This document shows, piece by piece, positions 52,462 to 58,865 of a stretch of 59,261 nt of DNA. The first letter of the stretch is position 1. Every line of letters begins with the position of its first letter. Position numbers and translations under genes: made by a program. The stretch lies in contig NZ_LT906480.1 in the NCBI RefSeq assembly GCF_900186865.1, positions 4,945,001 to 5,004,261 on the forward strand. The letters are read 5' to 3'. The notes beneath the pieces are model-generated. The model searched no databases. It was given only the letters and a program-made list of their open reading frames with translations, and was not told where the DNA came from. The DNA comes from Stenotrophomonas maltophilia. GTDB taxonomy: Bacteria > Pseudomonadota > Gammaproteobacteria > Xanthomonadales > Xanthomonadaceae.

Positions 52462-53811
52462 TTACTTGCCGATGCAGAAACTGGAGAAGATCCTCCCCAG
52501 CAGATCATCGGCACTCATCTGCCCAGTGATCTCACCCAGCGCGTCATGCGCCAGCCGCAGTTCCTCGGCGGCCAGCTCCAGGTGCTCGTGCGCCAGCTCG
52601 CCATCGGCGCGCTGCGCATGTTCCTGCGCACGTTCGATTGCATCCACATGGCGCGTGCGCGCGGAGAACTCGCCATCCACCTGCTCCCCTGCCCCGGCCG
52701 AAGCGATCGAACGCAGACGCGCGTGCAGATCGTCGAGCCCGGCGCCGGTGGCGGCCGAAACGAACACGCGGTCCGGATCGTCCAGCGACGGCAACGCCTC
52801 CAGCAGGTCCGACTTGTTGTGGATGTAGACCTTGTGCGGCACCGCCGCCACGGCCTCGCCCAGCGCCGCTTCGCCAGCCGCCGGATCGCGCGCATCCAGC
52901 ACGATCAGCGCCAGATCGGTGCGCTCGATTTCCACGTGGGCGCGGCGCATGCCTTCGCGTTCGATGGCGTCACCGCCGTCGCGCAGGCCGGCGGTGTCGA
53001 CCAGGGTCAGCTCCAGGCCGTCCAGGCGGATGGTCTCGCGCAGGGTGTCGCGGGTGGTACCGGCGATGTCGGTGACGATGGCGCGTTCGCTGCCGGCCAG
53101 CGCGTTGAGCAGTGAACTCTTGCCGGCGTTCGGCGGACCGATCAGCACCGCGTGCAGGCCATCGCGCAGGCGACGGCCGCGTTCGGCATCGCGGCGCAGC
53201 AGGGCCAGATCGCTGCGCGCCTGTTCCAGCCCACGCCGCACCTGCGCGCCACCGAGCGTATCCAGCGGTTCGTCGGCAAAATCGATGGCCGCTTCCACGT
53301 GGATGCGCAGCAGCACCAGCTGCTCGACCACGGCGTCGATGCGGCGCGAGAACACGCCATCCAGCGAGCGACGTGCCGCGCGCGCGGCGCGGTTGTCGCC
53401 CGCGGCGATCAGGTCGGCGATGGCCTCGGCCTGGGCCAGGTCGAGCTTGCCGTTGAGGAATGCCCGTTCACTGAACTCACCCGGCCGCGCCTGGCGCGCG
53501 CCGAGCGCGATGCAGCGCGCGACCAGCTGCTGCAGCAGCACCGGGCTGCCGTGGCCCTGCAGTTCCACCACTTCCTCGCCGGTAAAGCTGTTCGGTGCCG
53601 GGAACCACAGCACGATGCCATCGTCGATGACCTCGCCGTCGGCATCACGCAGGCGCGCGTAGTGCGCGTGGCGCGGACGCAGTGCAGGTGCGCCCAGTGC
53701 ATTGGCGATGGCCGCAGCACGCGGGCCGGACAGGCGCAGCAGGCCGACACCGCCGGCGCCAGGGGCGCTGGCGATGGCGACGATGGTGTCGGTGCGGATC
53801 GCGTCGTTCAT
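52462..53811 (-). CDS. mnmE: MnmE (TrmE), tRNA modification GTPase
   Basis: MnmE with MnmG adds the carboxymethylaminomethyl group to wobble uridine of several tRNAs. The 449-residue protein has the N-terminal folate-binding domain ([22 protein letters not shown]), helical domain, GTPase G1 [13 protein letters not shown]3 DTAGLRD, G4 NKSD and the C-terminal FCIGK with the catalytic Cys. It starts 4 bp after the large lipoprotein gene ends. Confidence 0.97.
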
Positions 53812-53814
53812 GGC

Positions 53815-56487
53815 TCAGAGCTTCTCCAGCTGTGCGCGCGCCTGGGCCGCGCCACTGCCCTGCGGCTGCAACGCCAGGTAGGTGGTGTAGGCCTGCTTGG
53901 CCTTGGCCTTGTCGCCGGCGTTGAAGTAGGCATCGCCCAGGTTGAGATAGGCCACTGCACGCGAGGGGTCGATCTTCAGCGTGTTCTCCAGCCAGCGCGC
54001 CGCTTCGGCATAGCGCTGCTGGCGGTAGTAGACGAAGCCGAGGTTGTTGGCGGCCTGGGCGAAGTCCGGACGCAGCTTCAGCGCCTCGGTGAACTGCGCC
54101 ACCGCCTCGTCGTACTGCTTCTCGCGGTACAGCTGCAGGCCGCGGTCATTGGCCTGCTGCGCGCGCTGGCGATCCGACGCCGGGCCCGCAGTGGGCACCA
54201 CCAGCTTGGCCTTGCCGCCCTGCAGGTCGGCCACCGTCACCGGCGCCTGGCTGCCCTTGGCTTCGCTGGCGGCTTCAACCTTGTTGTTCAGTGCGATCGC
54301 ATCGGCGGTCAACTGGCGCGTATCGGCATTGAGGAACTCCTGGCTGTCCGGCACCTGGAACACGAACTCGCCGCCCTGCGAACCGGGCAGGCTGCCGAAG
54401 GCCGGGGTCTGGTGTGAAACGGCTGAGACGGCCGGCGCAACGTAGGCGGCCAGTTCGGTACCGGTGATCAGCCCATCGCCGTTGAGGTCGCCCTTGCCGG
54501 CCAATGCCTGCAGCAGCACCCAGGTGAACACCGAGTGGCCGTTCGGAGCGGCGTCGGCCACCTGCTGGTCGGCACCGCCGGCGGTCAGCATCTGCCGCGC
54601 GCTGCGCCGCGCGTTCTCGCGCAGGAACGACGACGACGATGGACCGCCACGGGTCAGGCCCAGGCCGCTGTAGCAGGCATCCATCACGAACATCACGTGC
54701 TTGGCCTGCATGCTCTCGGCGATGTTCTGGATGTCGGTCATCGCGATGGCGTCGGTAGCGAATTCCTTCGGGTCCGAATCGACCGGGATGATGTAGCCGA
54801 GGTCGCGCCCGGAGGCGAGCTGGCGGGTCGCGCCATGGCCGGCAAAGAACACGAACACGCGATCGTTCTTGCCAGTGCGGTCATCGGCCAGGCGGTCGTG
54901 GAAGGCAGCCAGGATGTTGTTGCGCGTGGCCTGCTCGTTCTTCAGCACGATCACCTGCGAGGACGGGAAGCCGAACTGCCCGGTCAGGGTATCGGCCACC
55001 GCCTGCGCATCGTGGCTGGCGTACTCCAGCTTCGGCCACTTGGCGTAGTTGTCGATGCCGACCACGATCGCCCAGGACTTCTCGTAGCCGGTGGTGACGG
55101 TGGCATCGTTGGTCGCGCCCTTGCGCGCACGGGCGACCGTGAAGTCGCGGCCGTTCCAGCCAGCGAACTGGTAGCCATCGGCGATCAGCCGGTCGAGGAT
55201 CTGCGGCAGCGCCTTCACCGCACGATCGTGAATGTCGTGGAACAGGATGATGCCGCGCTGTTCCTTGTTCACCTGGTCGAGCACGCGCTGGACGATCGAT
55301 TCCGGCACCGGGTCGGCCCAGTCCATCGAGTCGATGTTCCACATGATCGACTTCAGCCCGGCTTCGTTGAGCAGCTGCAGGCCTTCGGCATTGCGTGCGC
55401 CATAGGGGAAGCGGAACAGCGGCGCGCGCTTGCTGTCGACATCCTTCAGCAGCGTGTCGGTGTCCAGCACCTGCTGGCGCAGCGCGTCACCGGTGGTGCG
55501 CGACAGCTGGGCGTGGGTCAGGCTGTGATTGCCGACCGCATAGCCCTCTTCCATCAGGTTGCGGCTGATCTTCGCCATCGGGCCGAGGCTGACCTTGCCG
55601 TCGGCCTCGACCTTGCCGAGGTTGCGGCCCACTTCGAAGAACACGCCCGGCACGTCGTAGCGCTTGAGGATGGCCACCACTTCATCGGTGTAGGCCTTGT
55701 GCGGGCCATCGTCGAAGGTGAGCACAACGGTCTTGGCCGGCAGGTCGCGGCCGAAGATCTCGCGGTCGCTGTCCTTCATCGACATCGGGTACGGCTCGAT
55801 CACGCCGTAGTCGCGCAGGATCGCTTCGCGGCTGTAGTCCTTGTGCAGGTGGGCGATGTAGTCGTCCCACTTCTCACGCTTCAGTTCGATGGCGCGGGTG
55901 CGCTCGAAGCGGCTGAAGATGCGGGTCAGTTCCTGGTTGTAGTTGCGCTCGATCTCATCAAGCGCCTCCAGGTCCTCACCGATGCGCTGGTGCAGCTTCA
56001 CTGCCGGCAGCGACGAATCGGTGCCGACCCGTTCATGCAGGTCACGCAGCACTTCGCGGAAGGCCAGGCGGTCGGCGTCGAACAGTTCCGGCGCCGACTC
56101 GATGTAGTCCAGCACGGTGCCGAGGGTGGCGAAGCGCTGCGGACTGGAGCCGCGCAGCAGCGTGTCGAACTGCGCGGCGATGGCCGTGCGCTGTTCCAGG
56201 CCATCGTGGAACAGCTGCTGGCCCACGCGCGTGGAGGTACCGCGGTCGGCAGCCGACTGCTGTTCCTCGTCGGCCAGCAGCACGATGATGCGGCGGTAGC
56301 CGTCGAGCTGCTTCTGCAGCGCGGCCAGCAACGGTGCAGCGGCGGGATCGGCGGCGGCCGCGGCCTGCGCGCTGGGCTGGGTGACCGTGGTCGCCGGCGC
56401 CTTCGCGTCCTTGTCGCCACAGCCGGCAACGACCAGGGTCAACAACAGCGACGGCAGGAACAGGCGGAACGACGGCGCACGCTGCAT
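53815..56487 (-). CDS. Lipoprotein with polysaccharide-deacetylase, caspase-like, EF-hand and TPR modules
   Basis: An 890-residue predicted lipoprotein (lipobox VVAGC, Cys23). After a helical region (about 50-240) comes a NodB-type deacetylase with all five motifs: TFDDGP (D259, D260), HSLTH (H321, H325), RFPYGARN, DSMDWADP and LFHDIHD. A caspase-like C14 domain follows from about residue 470, with the catalytic dyad in FFAGHG (H551) and DACYSG (C605). An EF-hand loop DLNGDGLITGTE is at 667-678, and TPR repeats fill about 775-890. Both enzyme domains look intact. It probably acts in the periplasm. Function and partners are unknown; the gene lies between yidC and mnmE. Confidence 0.9.
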   Translation of the reverse strand: MQRAPSFRLFLPSLLLTLVVAGCGDKDAKAPATTVTQPSAQAAAAADPAAAPLLAALQKQLDGYRRIIVLLADEEQQSAADRGTSTRVGQQLFHDGLEQRTAIAAQFDTLLRGSSPQRFATLGTVLDYIESAPELFDADRLAFREVLRDLHERVGTDSSLPAVKLHQRIGEDLEALDEIERNYNQELTRIFSRFERTRAIELKREKWDDYIAHLHKDYSREAILRDYGVIEPYPMSMKDSDREIFGRDLPAKTVVLTFDDGPHKAYTDEVVAILKRYDVPGVFFEVGRNLGKVEADGKVSLGPMAKISRNLMEEGYAVGNHSLTHAQLSRTTGDALRQQVLDTDTLLKDVDSKRAPLFRFPYGARNAEGLQLLNEAGLKSIMWNIDSMDWADPVPESIVQRVLDQVNKEQRGIILFHDIHDRAVKALPQILDRLIADGYQFAGWNGRDFTVARARKGATNDATVTTGYEKSWAIVVGIDNYAKWPKLEYASHDAQAVADTLTGQFGFPSSQVIVLKNEQATRNNILAAFHDRLADDRTGKNDRVFVFFAGHGATRQLASGRDLGYIIPVDSDPKEFATDAIAMTDIQNIAESMQAKHVMFVMDACYSGLGLTRGGPSSSSFLRENARRSARQMLTAGGADQQVADAAPNGHSVFTWVLLQALAGKGDLNGDGLITGTELAAYVAPAVSAVSHQTPAFGSLPGSQGGEFVFQVPDSQEFLNADTRQLTADAIALNNKVEAASEAKGSQAPVTVADLQGGKAKLVVPTAGPASDRQRAQQANDRGLQLYREKQYDEAVAQFTEALKLRPDFAQAANNLGFVYYRQQRYAEAARWLENTLKIDPSRAVAYLNLGDAYFNAGDKAKAKQAYTTYLALQPQGSGAAQARAQLEKL

Positions 56488-56540
56488 GGAGGACTCGAAG
56501 GTGGGAGGAACGGTGTGCCGGCGATTCTAACGCCGCATGC

Positions 56541-56568
56541 GAAAAGCCCGCCTTGCGGCGGGCTTCTC
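56541..56568 (-). terminator. Rho-independent terminator downstream of yidC
   Basis: Hairpin AAGCCCGCC-TTGC-GGCGGGCTT. Read on the minus strand it is followed by TTTTC, so it ends transcripts coming from yidC. It separates yidC from the lipoprotein gene, whose start is 54 bp further on; that gene must have its own promoter or depend on read-through. Confidence 0.8.
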
Positions 56569-56581
56569 ATCGACCGGGGCG

Positions 56582-56641
56582 GTAGTAGAGTCGACTGTTG
56601 GTCGACTGCTCTACTGCCAGTCGACCAACAGTCGACTCTAC
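56582..56641. repeat. GTAG REP pair, GTCGACT type
   Basis: A plus unit with stem AGTCGAC-TGTTG-GTCGACT and its inverted partner meet head to head, forming one large palindrome of 60 bp between the yidC stop and the terminator. Confidence 0.85.
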
Positions 56642-56650
56642 AGGTCGGGA

Positions 56651-58366
56651 TTACTTCTTTTTGACCGGGGCCGGCGCGGTGGTGGCCGGGACCGGCTCGC
56701 CGCCATGGCGCTTGGTCATCCACCACTGCTGCAGCAGGCCCAGGCCGCCGTTGACCACCCAGTACAGGACCAGGCCGGACGGCATGAAGGCCATCATGAC
56801 GCCGAACACCAGCGGCATGAACTGCATCATCTTCTGCTGCATCGGGTCCATGCCCGGTGCCGGGGTCAGCTTCTGGGTGAACCACATCACTGCCACGTTG
56901 ATGACCGGCAGGATGAAGTACGGGTCGCGTGCGGTCAGGTCCTGGATCCAGCCGAACCAGGGCGCCTGGCGCAGTTCGACCGATTCCACCAGCACCCAGT
57001 ACAGGGCGAAGAAGATCGGCATCTGGATGAGGATCGGCAGGCAGCCCCCCATCGGATTGATCTTTTCCTTCTTGTACAGCTCCATCATCGCGGTCTGGAA
57101 CTTCTGGCGGTCATCGCCATAGCGTTCCTTCAGCTGCGCGATGCGCGGCTGGAAACGACGCATCTTGGCGCCGCTCTTGTACTGGGTCGCCGACAGCGGG
57201 TACAGCACCAGCTTCAGCAGCACCACCAGGCCGACGATCGCCCAGCCCCAGTTGCCGACCAGCTTGTGCACCTGGTTCAGCACCCAGAACAGGCCCTGGC
57301 CGATCACCGCCATCATCGAGAAGCGGCTGTAGTCGACCACGCGGTCCAGGCCCGGCACGTCTTCCTTGGCGATCAGGTTGACCAGCTTCGGGCCGACCCA
57401 CAGGCGGGCTTCGGTGCTGGTGGACTGGCCCGGGGCCACGGTGAAGGCCGGGCCACGCGCTTCGATCAGGTCACGACCGGCCACCTGCGACAGCACGTAG
57501 TGTGCGGTCTGGTCCTTCTGCGGGATCCAGGCGGTGAAGAAGTGGTGCTGCAGCATCGCCAGCCAGCCGCCGGTGATGTTCTGGTTCAGCGTGCCGTCTT
57601 CCAGGTAGTCCTTGAACGCACGACGCTGGTACTTCTTGTCGTTGTCGTACCAGGTGGCACCGTTGAAGCTGAAGGAATCCGGGTTGGTCATGCTCCGCGA
57701 CAGGATGGTCGGGGTGCGGTCCAGGGTGCGGTAGACGTAGCCGTTCCACGGCGCGGCGCCAGCGTTGCTGACTTCGTCCTTGAAGCGCACGGCGTACTCG
57801 TTGCGCGAGACGGTCAGGGTGCGCTTGATGGTCACGCCGTTGTCGGCGGTCCACACGAACGGGATCTGTAGCTCGTTCTGGCCCTTGGCCAGCACGAAGT
57901 CCTTGGTGTCACCCACCAGCTTGAAGCCGTCAGCGCCGGGGACCGGGGTGTTCTTGTCTTCGCTGGCCCAGCCACTGATCGCGCTGTACGGGTGCGCGGG
58001 GTCTTCGGTCAGCAGGCGGACCGGCGGGCTGCCTTCGTCCTTGGTCTGCGGGAACTGCAGCAGCTCGGCGTCGAGCACGCGGCCGCCGTCGAGCACCAGG
58101 CGCAGCACGTCGGTGGTGACGGTCACGCGCTGGCTGGCCGGGGTAGCGCTGGCCTGGGCCTGTGCGGCGGCCGGGCCGGGGGCGCCCGGCACCTGGGCGC
58201 TGGGGATGGCGCCGGGGTTCGCGCCCGGAACACTTTGTGCGGCGGCCGGGGCCGACGTGGTGGTTGGTGCCGGGGTCGGAGCAGCCTTTTCACGGCTCCA
58301 CTCCATCCACAGCAGCACGGCCACCATCAGCCAGGCAAAAATGAGGAATACGCGGGTCTGGTTCAT
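56651..58366 (-). CDS. yidC: YidC, membrane protein insertase
   Basis: YidC inserts and folds inner-membrane proteins, alone or with SecYEG. The 571-residue protein has an N-terminal membrane segment (residues 6-22), an Ala/Pro linker, the periplasmic beta-sandwich domain and five C-terminal segments ([52 protein letters not shown]). The tail is basic (APVKKK). Its ATG overlaps the rnpA stop by one base (TGATG). Confidence 0.97.
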
Positions 58367-58824
58367 CAGCGGACAGGCTCGGCGGGGCCGGGACGCGATG
58401 CCGGCTCGGTCAAAGAAGGAGTTGCGATGCCATCAGGCGGCGGCATTGTGCCGTCCACGCCCGGCGTGGGCAATGCACGCAGGCGACGCAGCAGGCGCAG
58501 GAAGGCCTGGCGGATCTCGTCGTTGCTGGCGGAACGCGCAGCACTACGAGCCACGACGACAAAGTCGCCTGGCTGGATGTCGGTACGTGTCTGACGCAGG
58601 ATGTCGCGCAGGACGCGCTTGATCCGGTTACGCCCGACGGCGTTCGGATCAACCTTGCGGGAAACCGCCAGACCCAGCCTGGCCGGCCGGTCAGCCGGCA
58701 GCCAGTGCAGGGTCATCAGCGGATCGGACACACGGCGGGCGCCGTTGAAGACCGTTGAGTATTCGGCACGCGTGCGAACCCGCGCAGAGCGAGGGAATCG
58801 CTTGCGCGGGTCTGCAGTATTCAC
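58366..58824 (-). CDS. rnpA: RnpA, ribonuclease P protein component
   Basis: RnpA is the protein subunit of RNase P, which matures tRNA 5' ends. The protein (152 residues from the GTG at 58824) has [13 protein letters not shown] at the N terminus and the RNA-binding motif [21 protein letters not shown] Pro-rich tail of about 40 residues follows the core. An alternative ATG at 58860 lies 5 bp after the rpmH stop and would add 12 residues; neither start has a clear ribosome site. Confidence 0.93.
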
Positions 58825-58865
58825 TGTCGAAGGGATTGCGTCTGCCGCGGGGTGCGGCATGGCAA

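Follow-up and report, generated by a model that had tools for sequence, protein, structure and literature searches.

The association of bacterial caspase homologues with cell death is an old one, but few mechanistic details stand behind it. One family linked by a 2012 survey to cell-death reports in Xanthomonas is the 'Xanthomonas-type metacaspase' of Asplund-Samuelsson (PMC3501461), which joins a deacetylase, a metacaspase domain with a His-Cys (HC) dyad, and one to three tetratricopeptide repeats (TPRs) in a protein of 97-100 kDa. The organisms named for it are Xanthomonas, Xylella, Stenotrophomonas, and two Acidobacteria; its gene has a trmE/yidC/rnpA neighbourhood in the three named genera and was described in an operon with trmE. 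The survey also relates, at second hand, that X. campestris pv. glycines has a gene combining deacetylase and caspase, with a product that was linked to cell death, and that Xanthomonas mutants deficient in the caspase did not die in this way. In its main text, 'EF-hand' and 'calcium' gave 0 hits each. The gene analysed here, termed the fusion gene, lies in a stretch of 59,261 nucleotides from Stenotrophomonas maltophilia (assembly GCF_900186865.1, contig NZ_LT906480.1, positions 4,945,001 to 5,004,261), the whole of which is referred to as the window.

The fusion protein is the Stenotrophomonas member of this published family, and its architecture, taxonomic core, and neighbourhood were already known; the initial annotation, made from the DNA letters, had called the combination unusual. 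Shared with the published description are the domain order, the HC dyad, the mass (97.6 kDa), trmE (mnmE) next door, and yidC and rnpA upstream, the last being a 164-aa open reading frame (ORF) at 58366-58860 assigned by place and by eye. The X. campestris pv. glycines protein (GI 88792532) was compared through its published description, and Xanthomonas-titled orthologs, 74-86% identical, were aligned. What is added here is a calcium-type loop inside the C14 domain, the missing metacaspase calcium-site Asp residues, kept acidic S1 residues, betaproteobacterial orthologs, and losses within the genus. Among the matches listed from the open-licence PubMed Central literature, the calcium loop of the family, the missing metacaspase site, its two kinds of anchor, and its losses were not found. 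Read together, the features suggest, with about an even chance of being right, an anchored envelope deacetylase-protease that would be ordered by calcium after export and would act in stress- or stationary-phase envelope remodelling or autolysis.

Domain architecture and catalytic residues

The coordinates first assigned to the gene, 53815-56487, proved right; the gene is on the minus strand, and plus-strand frame 1 across the same interval contains two stops. A Pfam scan placed Polysacc_deac_1 (PF01522) at residues 248-379 (E 4.9e-26), Peptidase_C14 (PF00656) at 471-667 (E 5.3e-22), and several TPR families above cut-off at about 781-888. This order in a single chain is the one that defines the Xanthomonas-type metacaspase and bears out the NodB, C14, and C-terminal TPR architecture proposed earlier. 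For residues 58-247, neither a Pfam match nor a solved-structure relative below E 0.1 was found. The fusion protein gave the one C14 match in its own genome (the same search was also positive in 1 of 14 control genomes), alongside five NodB matches. The N-terminus reads ...LLLTLVVAGC23GDKD, a signal peptide with a lipobox, which agrees with the earlier lipoprotein prediction; the signal, lipobox, and ORF rules used throughout were home-made. By the Lol rule of Escherichia coli, Gly at position +2 predicts sorting to the outer membrane, and the Gly at +2 here predicts the same for the fusion lipoprotein.

The NodB domain matched the solved deacetylases 7y51, 7fbw, and 2c1g (E 1.3e-29 to 4.3e-29). 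Conservation was read from an ortholog alignment (the window protein and 34 orthologs, 60-90% identical; 35 rows), a wider alignment (the window protein and 21 relatives picked from 120 listed of 408 found in a domain-only protein search; 22 rows), and a C14 domain profile (32 rows), the rows of all three being hand-picked. D259/D260, H321/H325, R359-Y362, D386/D389-W390, and L415-H417, which are taken to represent the five NodB motifs, are invariant in 35/35 rows of the ortholog alignment, the window included, and the deacetylase is complete in this sense, as first described. Every NCBIfam deacetylase model listed for the fusion protein remained below its cut-off (e.g., PdaB, 116 bits vs 237.4).

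The search of solved structures with the wider alignment was swamped by TPR proteins because some of its rows carried TPRs, and the C14 profile was used instead. It matched yeast metacaspase-1 (ScMca1, 4f6o; E 4e-15) as well as 6w8s, 7qp0, 4afr, MALT1, and caspase-1, the p20 matches to type I metacaspases (ScMca1 4f6o, CgMCA-I 7qp0/7qp1, and TbMCA2 4afr) ranging from E 4e-15 to 5.7e-11. H551 and C605 occupy the catalytic His and Cys columns of solved metacaspases (4f6p has Ala in the column of C605), so the His551/Cys605 dyad is intact, as claimed at the outset. Both residues are present in 35/35 rows of the ortholog alignment and 22/22 of the wider one, the window included; for C605 the former count holds partly by construction, as the contig scan for orthologs, from which the best 80 of 251 relatives were kept, used the patterns FVMDACY or KLHQRIGE. 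These results support a caspase-type p20 fold with a His-Cys dyad for the p20 half, the mutual orientation of H551 and C605 lying beyond profile evidence. Residues 634-715 resemble p10 only in a second, non-significant alignment to 4f6o (score -0.7).

Two acidic residues at the S1 place, D493 and D603, are kept in 35/35 rows of the ortholog alignment and fall on Asp120 and Asp236 of CgMCA-I in the C14 profile alignment, residues that presumably line its basic S1 pocket. With both acids kept, the fusion protease should cut after Arg or Lys, not Asp. R613, beside a variable-length loop, is invariant (35/35 and 22/22 rows of the ortholog and wider alignments), and R453, within a variable linker, is Arg in 22, Lys in 12, and Gly in 1 of the 35 ortholog rows. 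Self-cleavage at either place is not claimed: the predicted products (48.3 + 46.8 or 65.8 + 29.4 kDa) do not include the 55 kDa reported from Xanthomonas, and the case for R613 is further weakened because Arg near that place is common in other C14 proteins.

The calcium-type loop and its proposed role

The EF-hand loop with all ligand positions filled, noted earlier at residues 667-678, is as described and has the canonical 12-residue pattern (DLNGDGLITGTE): D667, N669, D671, T675, and E678 occupy ligand positions 1, 3, 5, 9, and 12, with Gly672 at position 6. Each of the five ligands is kept in 35/35 rows of the ortholog alignment. In the wider alignment, position 12 is Glu in 22/22 rows, position 3 is Asn in 17, Asp in 4, and Ser in 1, and position 5 is Asp in 19 and Asn in 3. 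The strict EF loop pattern occurs once in the 118,518 six-frame codons of the window; the loop is single, and paired EF loops are absent from the fusion protein by sequence pattern. In the Pfam scan, no EF-hand model passed its cut-off (EF-hand_5, E 0.19, 11.7 bits vs 25.9), and a weak match of the C14 profile to the calcium-binding protein CML18 (8rx8, E 0.073) spans the loop.

The loop had been placed next to the caspase domain. The Pfam C14 match, however, ends at residue 667, which is model position 196 of 233, and the loop therefore lies inside the C14 domain; the C14 alignment agrees. As a lead only, the non-significant 4f6o stretch puts it between two presumed p10 helices. Of 25 other C14 proteins in the alignment, a pattern-passing loop stands at this position in five, a short hairpin in 18, and a longer divergent loop in two. 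In another genome, G173, a second, stand-alone C14 protein (L051:3481-5322; 613 aa), 46% identical to the fusion caspase domain, has a degenerate EF loop and, by eye, no NodB motif, TPR, or signal peptide. Since the loop is missing in 20 of the 25 proteins and not intact in the stand-alone protein of G173, the fold in itself does not depend on calcium.

In CgMCA-I, calcium is held by Gly196, Asp198, Asp214, Thr242, and Asp245 (PMC9622860). Asp198, Asp214, and Asp245 correspond, in columns read by hand, to L563, A582, and T612 of the fusion protein, the chain numbering agreeing with the paper; the Asp214 column is the least sure, with a three-residue gap just before it and the invariant D579 three residues earlier. 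Position 563 is Leu in 34 and Val in 1 of the 35 ortholog rows, and in the 32-row C14 profile Asp is found at 563 or 612 in none and at 582 in two (L035 and L043). By alignment, the three Asp residues of the known metacaspase calcium site thus appear to be absent from the fusion protein, and any calcium dependence would have to reside in loop 667-678. Because this lack is common to loop-bearing and loop-less bacterial C14 proteins, no claim is made that one site replaced the other. The initial annotation had argued from the calcium activation of metacaspases; that argument does not carry over, and the EF-type loop is left as the sole candidate.

Constraint on the regions of the protein was estimated as the ratio of non-synonymous to synonymous substitution rates (dN/dS, NG86) between the window gene and five relatives, the pairs being not independent since the window gene is in each. 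The values were 0.059-0.126 for C14, 0.080-0.141 for the TPRs, 0.091-0.285 for NodB, 0.150-0.289 for the N-region, 0.158-1.538 for linker 446-468, and 0.174-0.513 for linker 716-772. C14 was the lowest of the four large regions in four of the five pairs; in the remaining pair (L091), only the TPRs had a lower value. Residues 665-680 had no non-synonymous difference in 5/5 pairs, with about one to two per pair expected at the domain mean rate (our own arithmetic, on pairs that share the window gene). The mean identity to 16 betaproteobacterial rows was 0.89 for the loop, 0.73 for C14, 0.71 for the TPRs, 0.67 for NodB, 0.53 for the N-region (residues 50-245), 0.48 for linker 716-772, and 0.37 for linker 446-468. 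Twenty ORFs from the family and genus searches, one of which (L001) is the window gene itself, were aligned to the window protein, and the 18 other intact copies match it in every NodB catalytic residue, in H551 and C605, and in the letters of the EF loop. L017 is a decayed copy with motif changes and an internal stop, its 841-aa open frame breaking at the TPR start; L125 (titled Xanthomonas axonopodis DSM 3585) likewise has an 841-aa open frame with an early stop.

In the reading favoured here, the N-terminal lipid would tether the fusion protein to the envelope with the two enzymes on the periplasmic side. The NodB domain, as its complete CE4 motifs and its relatives suggest, would deacetylate a sugar polymer of the envelope, most likely peptidoglycan; the C14 domain would act as a His-Cys protease cutting after Arg/Lys, and the TPRs might form a docking surface for substrates or partners. 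The calcium-type loop may connect a pair of helices close to where the caspase fold ends, as the weak alignment hints, and bound calcium would most likely order that half of the protease after exit from the calcium-poor cytoplasm, so that the enzyme would stay inactive until exported and gain competence in the envelope. The output would most likely be stress- or stationary-phase remodelling of the envelope or its autolysis, not a phage-specific device, and the role in cell death that has been reported for a Xanthomonas homologue fits this; for a death-related role, that second-hand literature is the sole outside support. A possible, more tentative extension is that the family represents an exported caspase lineage without the metacaspase calcium site, in which an EF-hand is built from two caspase-fold helices and extracytoplasmic calcium would fold or activate the enzyme. 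Such a protease might be gated by location, firing only after export and anchoring beside the cell wall on which its own deacetylase domain works.

Several observations weigh against the favoured reading. Calcium binding, activity, and localisation of the fusion protein are all inferred from sequence. The Gly at loop position 6 is absent from three rows of the wider alignment (P0142, P0150, and P0202), and P0175, a Xylella fastidiosa subsp. pauca fragment left out of that alignment, reads DFKDDGLITGTE, with Lys at position 3, which counts against an essential loop. The 20 of 25 C14 proteins without the loop and the stand-alone G173 point the same way. An association between EF loop and export signal among other C14 proteins was not significant (Fisher p 0.13, in a test that relied on the home-made signal rule, included the three near-identical orthologs L031-L033, and counted some loci that are the same gene fetched twice); without L031-L033, a signal-like start was found in 4/5 loop-bearing vs 37/65 loop-less C14 proteins (domain unplaced in L024 and L202). 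Autocatalysis of the orthocaspase MaOC1 is reported to be independent of calcium (PMC8283722), so a bacterial relative can function in its absence. The reported Xanthomonas band is of 55 kDa against about 100 kDa predicted (PMC3501461), and the activity assayed in the work on Xanthomonas cell death is cleavage of DEVD (PMC4006831), not expected of a protease whose S1 residues are acidic, so the link of that activity to the gene is shaky. Finally, the gene is dispensable, as 16 of the 91 genus genomes have no match. P0175 itself is partial, with the dyad kept and the TPR region diverged, and is perhaps a decaying copy.

A purely structural hairpin that has nothing to do with calcium, in an otherwise ordinary deacetylase-protease fusion, is judged a rather unlikely reading of the loop: the short or divergent loops of most other C14 proteins, the sub-threshold Pfam models, and the Lys of P0175 speak for it, but the invariant side-chain ligands in the ortholog alignment, the Glu at position 12 in every row of the wider one, and the lack of non-synonymous differences in all five pairs speak against it. 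The initial annotation had instead suggested calcium-gated proteolysis, in which a rise in envelope calcium would switch the protease on as a signal. Such gating is unlikely: the EF-type loop with its conserved ligands does lie inside the protease, and eukaryotic metacaspases are strongly calcium-dependent (PMC5756287), but the known metacaspase calcium residues are absent by alignment and the loop is single and unpaired. Periplasmic calcium follows the medium. For this reason, a constitutive site with a role in folding, stability, or activation on export seems likelier than a switch, and gating, for which no support was found, is doubtful on general grounds. It is quite improbable that deacetylation of peptidoglycan or exopolysaccharide is the main function of the protein and that its caspase domain serves as a scaffold with no catalysis of its own: the NodB domain has all its motifs and the 120 listed relatives usually carry the source name 'polysaccharide deacetylase family protein', yet dN/dS of C14 is below that of NodB in 5/5 pairs, and dyad and S1 residues are invariant among the orthologs.

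Three predictions can be drawn from the protein sequence, namely cleavage after Arg/Lys rather than Asp, the seat of any calcium need in residues 667-678 and not in the metacaspase site, and an envelope rather than a cytoplasmic location. If the first is true, the 'caspase-3-like' activity of the Xanthomonas reports needs another source. As the fusion protein is the sole C14 match of its genome, and as 15 relatives within the genus lack the fusion gene and have yidC directly beside mnmE, its role is open to testing free of redundancy.

Distribution, anchors, and genomic neighbourhood

Full-length matches were found in 17 of 149 family genomes (one of these, G092, with a broken copy) and in 75 of 91 genus genomes, both counts including the window's genome, and in 3 of 369 class genomes, each of which belongs to the same genus as the window (two candidates scored per genome; the other listed matches were single-domain). 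The 80 kept loci comprise 59 of Xanthomonadaceae type, four bins titled Azonexus or Betaproteobacteria, and 17 from other Betaproteobacteria (Janthinobacterium, Massilia, Undibacterium, Polaromonas, Rhodoferax, Thiobacillus, Hydrogenophilales, and one unnamed bin). In the gene tree, 16 betaproteobacterial rows are split from the 19 others at 100/100. The four Azonexus-type bins (L084, L085, L087, and L088) encode proteins 80-84% identical to the window protein at sites away from yidC and mnmE, and three of them (L085 is not in the tree) nest among Xanthomonadaceae, which suggests recent transfer or misbinning; their names suggest, as a guess, termite gut. L097, counted among the 59, is a Stenotrophomonas-type sequence in a record titled Bacillus subtilis SK7B5, and three Stenotrophomonas-type proteins (P0071, P0194, and P0222) are named after the fungi Knufia and Rhizopus; all are probably from contaminated assemblies.

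Two kinds of anchor were distinguished. A lipobox or lipobox-like Cys is present in 61 of the 63 Xanthomonadaceae- and Azonexus-type loci, in 58 by pattern and in L095, L104, and L106 by eye; of the exceptions, L082 begins at a contig edge, and in L098 the pattern hit was discarded as the N-terminus is shortened. The latter locus (Xanthomonas phaseoli pv. phaseoli ATCC 49119) has a shortened frame with no recognisable lipobox. All 17 other betaproteobacterial loci have a hydrophobic, transmembrane-like N-terminal stretch with no lipobox Cys. Both anchors would leave the enzyme in the periplasm.

The conserved yidC-mnmE neighbourhood first proposed was borne out within Xanthomonadaceae: mnmE is near the fusion gene in 59/59 loci of this type and yidC in 56/59, the other three beginning at a contig edge. 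In L107 (Stenotrophomonas koreensis), the order is yidC, mnmE, fusion gene rather than yidC, fusion gene, mnmE. No mnmE or yidC match was found within the fetched flank of the 17 betaproteobacterial and four Azonexus-type loci. In two Rhodoferax bins (L118:3876-5801 and L126:41-1585), the fusion gene follows, by eye, a Ser/Thr protein kinase-like gene. An anti-phage or abortive-infection device, in line with the phage-response role once suggested, is very improbable: a PADLOC scan of the fusion protein (its neighbours were not scanned) gave the model 'caspase' at 7.3e-21, a generic C14 match, and a weak TPR-region match to PDC-M71B (E 0.0087), but the yidC-mnmE site is a fixed, housekeeping one in Xanthomonadaceae-type loci, export rather than a cytoplasmic location is predicted, and the phage-defence context was rejected because no neighbour cluster is common to more than 4 of the 21 loci elsewhere (home-made ORF calling).

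No fusion match at E 1e-40 was obtained in the 16 genus genomes mentioned above, or in 14 of the 86 with at least 90% completeness and at most 5% contamination. Fifteen of the 16 have mnmE, the sixteenth (G211) being 77% complete, and in all 15 yidC lies directly upstream of mnmE with no significant fusion-protein match there. In the close relative L132, whose yidC is 97% identical, window positions 53842-56523 have no aligned counterpart, and the probable yidC terminator and the TAGAAT box remain. Of the earlier view of a long-fixed accessory gene, the fixed site in Xanthomonadaceae stands, and the fixation does not hold throughout the genus. A general functional link to mnmE was rejected because 21 loci have no mnmE or yidC nearby and mnmE persists in 15 of the 16 fusion-less genomes.

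The features of the locus are listed in Table 1. The fusion gene and mnmE are likely co-transcribed. A sigma-70 consensus scan around 56524-56529 called no promoter-like site. Repeats headed by GTAG are common in the spaces between S. maltophilia genes, and the inverted repeat between yidC and the fusion gene is taken to belong to this kind. On the plus strand, an open frame of 709 aa (54535-56664) runs antisense to the fusion gene, probably as an effect of high G+C codon usage.

Table 1. Features of the fusion gene locus, in window coordinates.
Feature	Position	Strand	Details and basis
mnmE (trmE)	52462..53811	minus	starts 3 bases after the fusion gene stop codon
Fusion gene (deacetylase-caspase-TPR)	53815..56487	minus	890 aa, ATG start, 97.6 kDa before processing
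C-terminal TPR region, residues 773-890	53818..54171	minus	matches to several TPR families above cut-off
C14 caspase-like domain, residues 469-715	54343..55083	minus	PF00656; profile matches metacaspases, MALT1, caspase-1
EF-hand-type calcium loop, residues 667-678, DLNGDGLITGTE	54454..54489	minus	invariant ligands in the ortholog alignment
Codon of catalytic Cys605	54673..54675	minus	aligned with metacaspase Cys
Codon of catalytic His551	54835..54837	minus	aligned with metacaspase His
Variable linker, residues 446-468, basic at R453	55084..55152	minus	37% mean identity to betaproteobacterial orthologs
NodB/CE4 deacetylase domain, residues 248-445, complete motifs	55153..55746	minus	PF01522, solved deacetylases, motif residues
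N-terminal region, residues 58-247, conserved across orthologs	55747..56316	minus	no known family
Signal peptide and lipobox VAGC, residues 1-23, predicted lipidation at Cys23	56419..56487	minus	sequence by eye; C23 in 11/11 rows of an 11-row alignment, window included
TAGAAT, possible -10 box of fusion gene-mnmE transcript	56524..56529	minus	sequence; kept in the empty site of close relative L132
Stem-loop then T-run, probable yidC terminator	56541..56568	minus	inverted repeat and sequence; not called by consensus scanner
Inverted repeat, perfect 24-base arms, between yidC and fusion gene	56585-56641		
yidC, upstream neighbour	56651..58366	minus	163 bases upstream of fusion gene

Comparison with known systems

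With CE4/NodB deacetylases such as PgdA (2c1g) and PdaB (TIGR02764), the fusion protein has all CE4 motifs in common; unlike them, it also carries a protease and scores below cut-off in every NCBIfam deacetylase model listed. With orthocaspases such as MaOC1, it shares the C14 protease, the HC dyad, the basic P1 preference (predicted here), and the presence of extra domains, which orthocaspases often have; it differs in its NodB partner, none being given for MaOC1 in the available text of PMC8283722. An EF-hand motif has been reported in 7 archaeal orthocaspase proteins (PMC6426788). Compared with the available description of the Xanthomonas-type metacaspase (PMC3501461), the present data add betaproteobacterial orthologs with a transmembrane-like anchor, the lipobox, and the losses. 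Type I metacaspases share with the fusion protein the p20 part, by profile, together with the His-Cys dyad and the acidic S1 residues. The calcium-site Asp198, Asp214, and Asp245 are a feature of CgMCA-I, in the place of which the fusion protein has L563, A582, and T612, and it is set apart from the type I enzymes by the EF-type loop in its C-terminal half, its predicted export, and its fusion to NodB.

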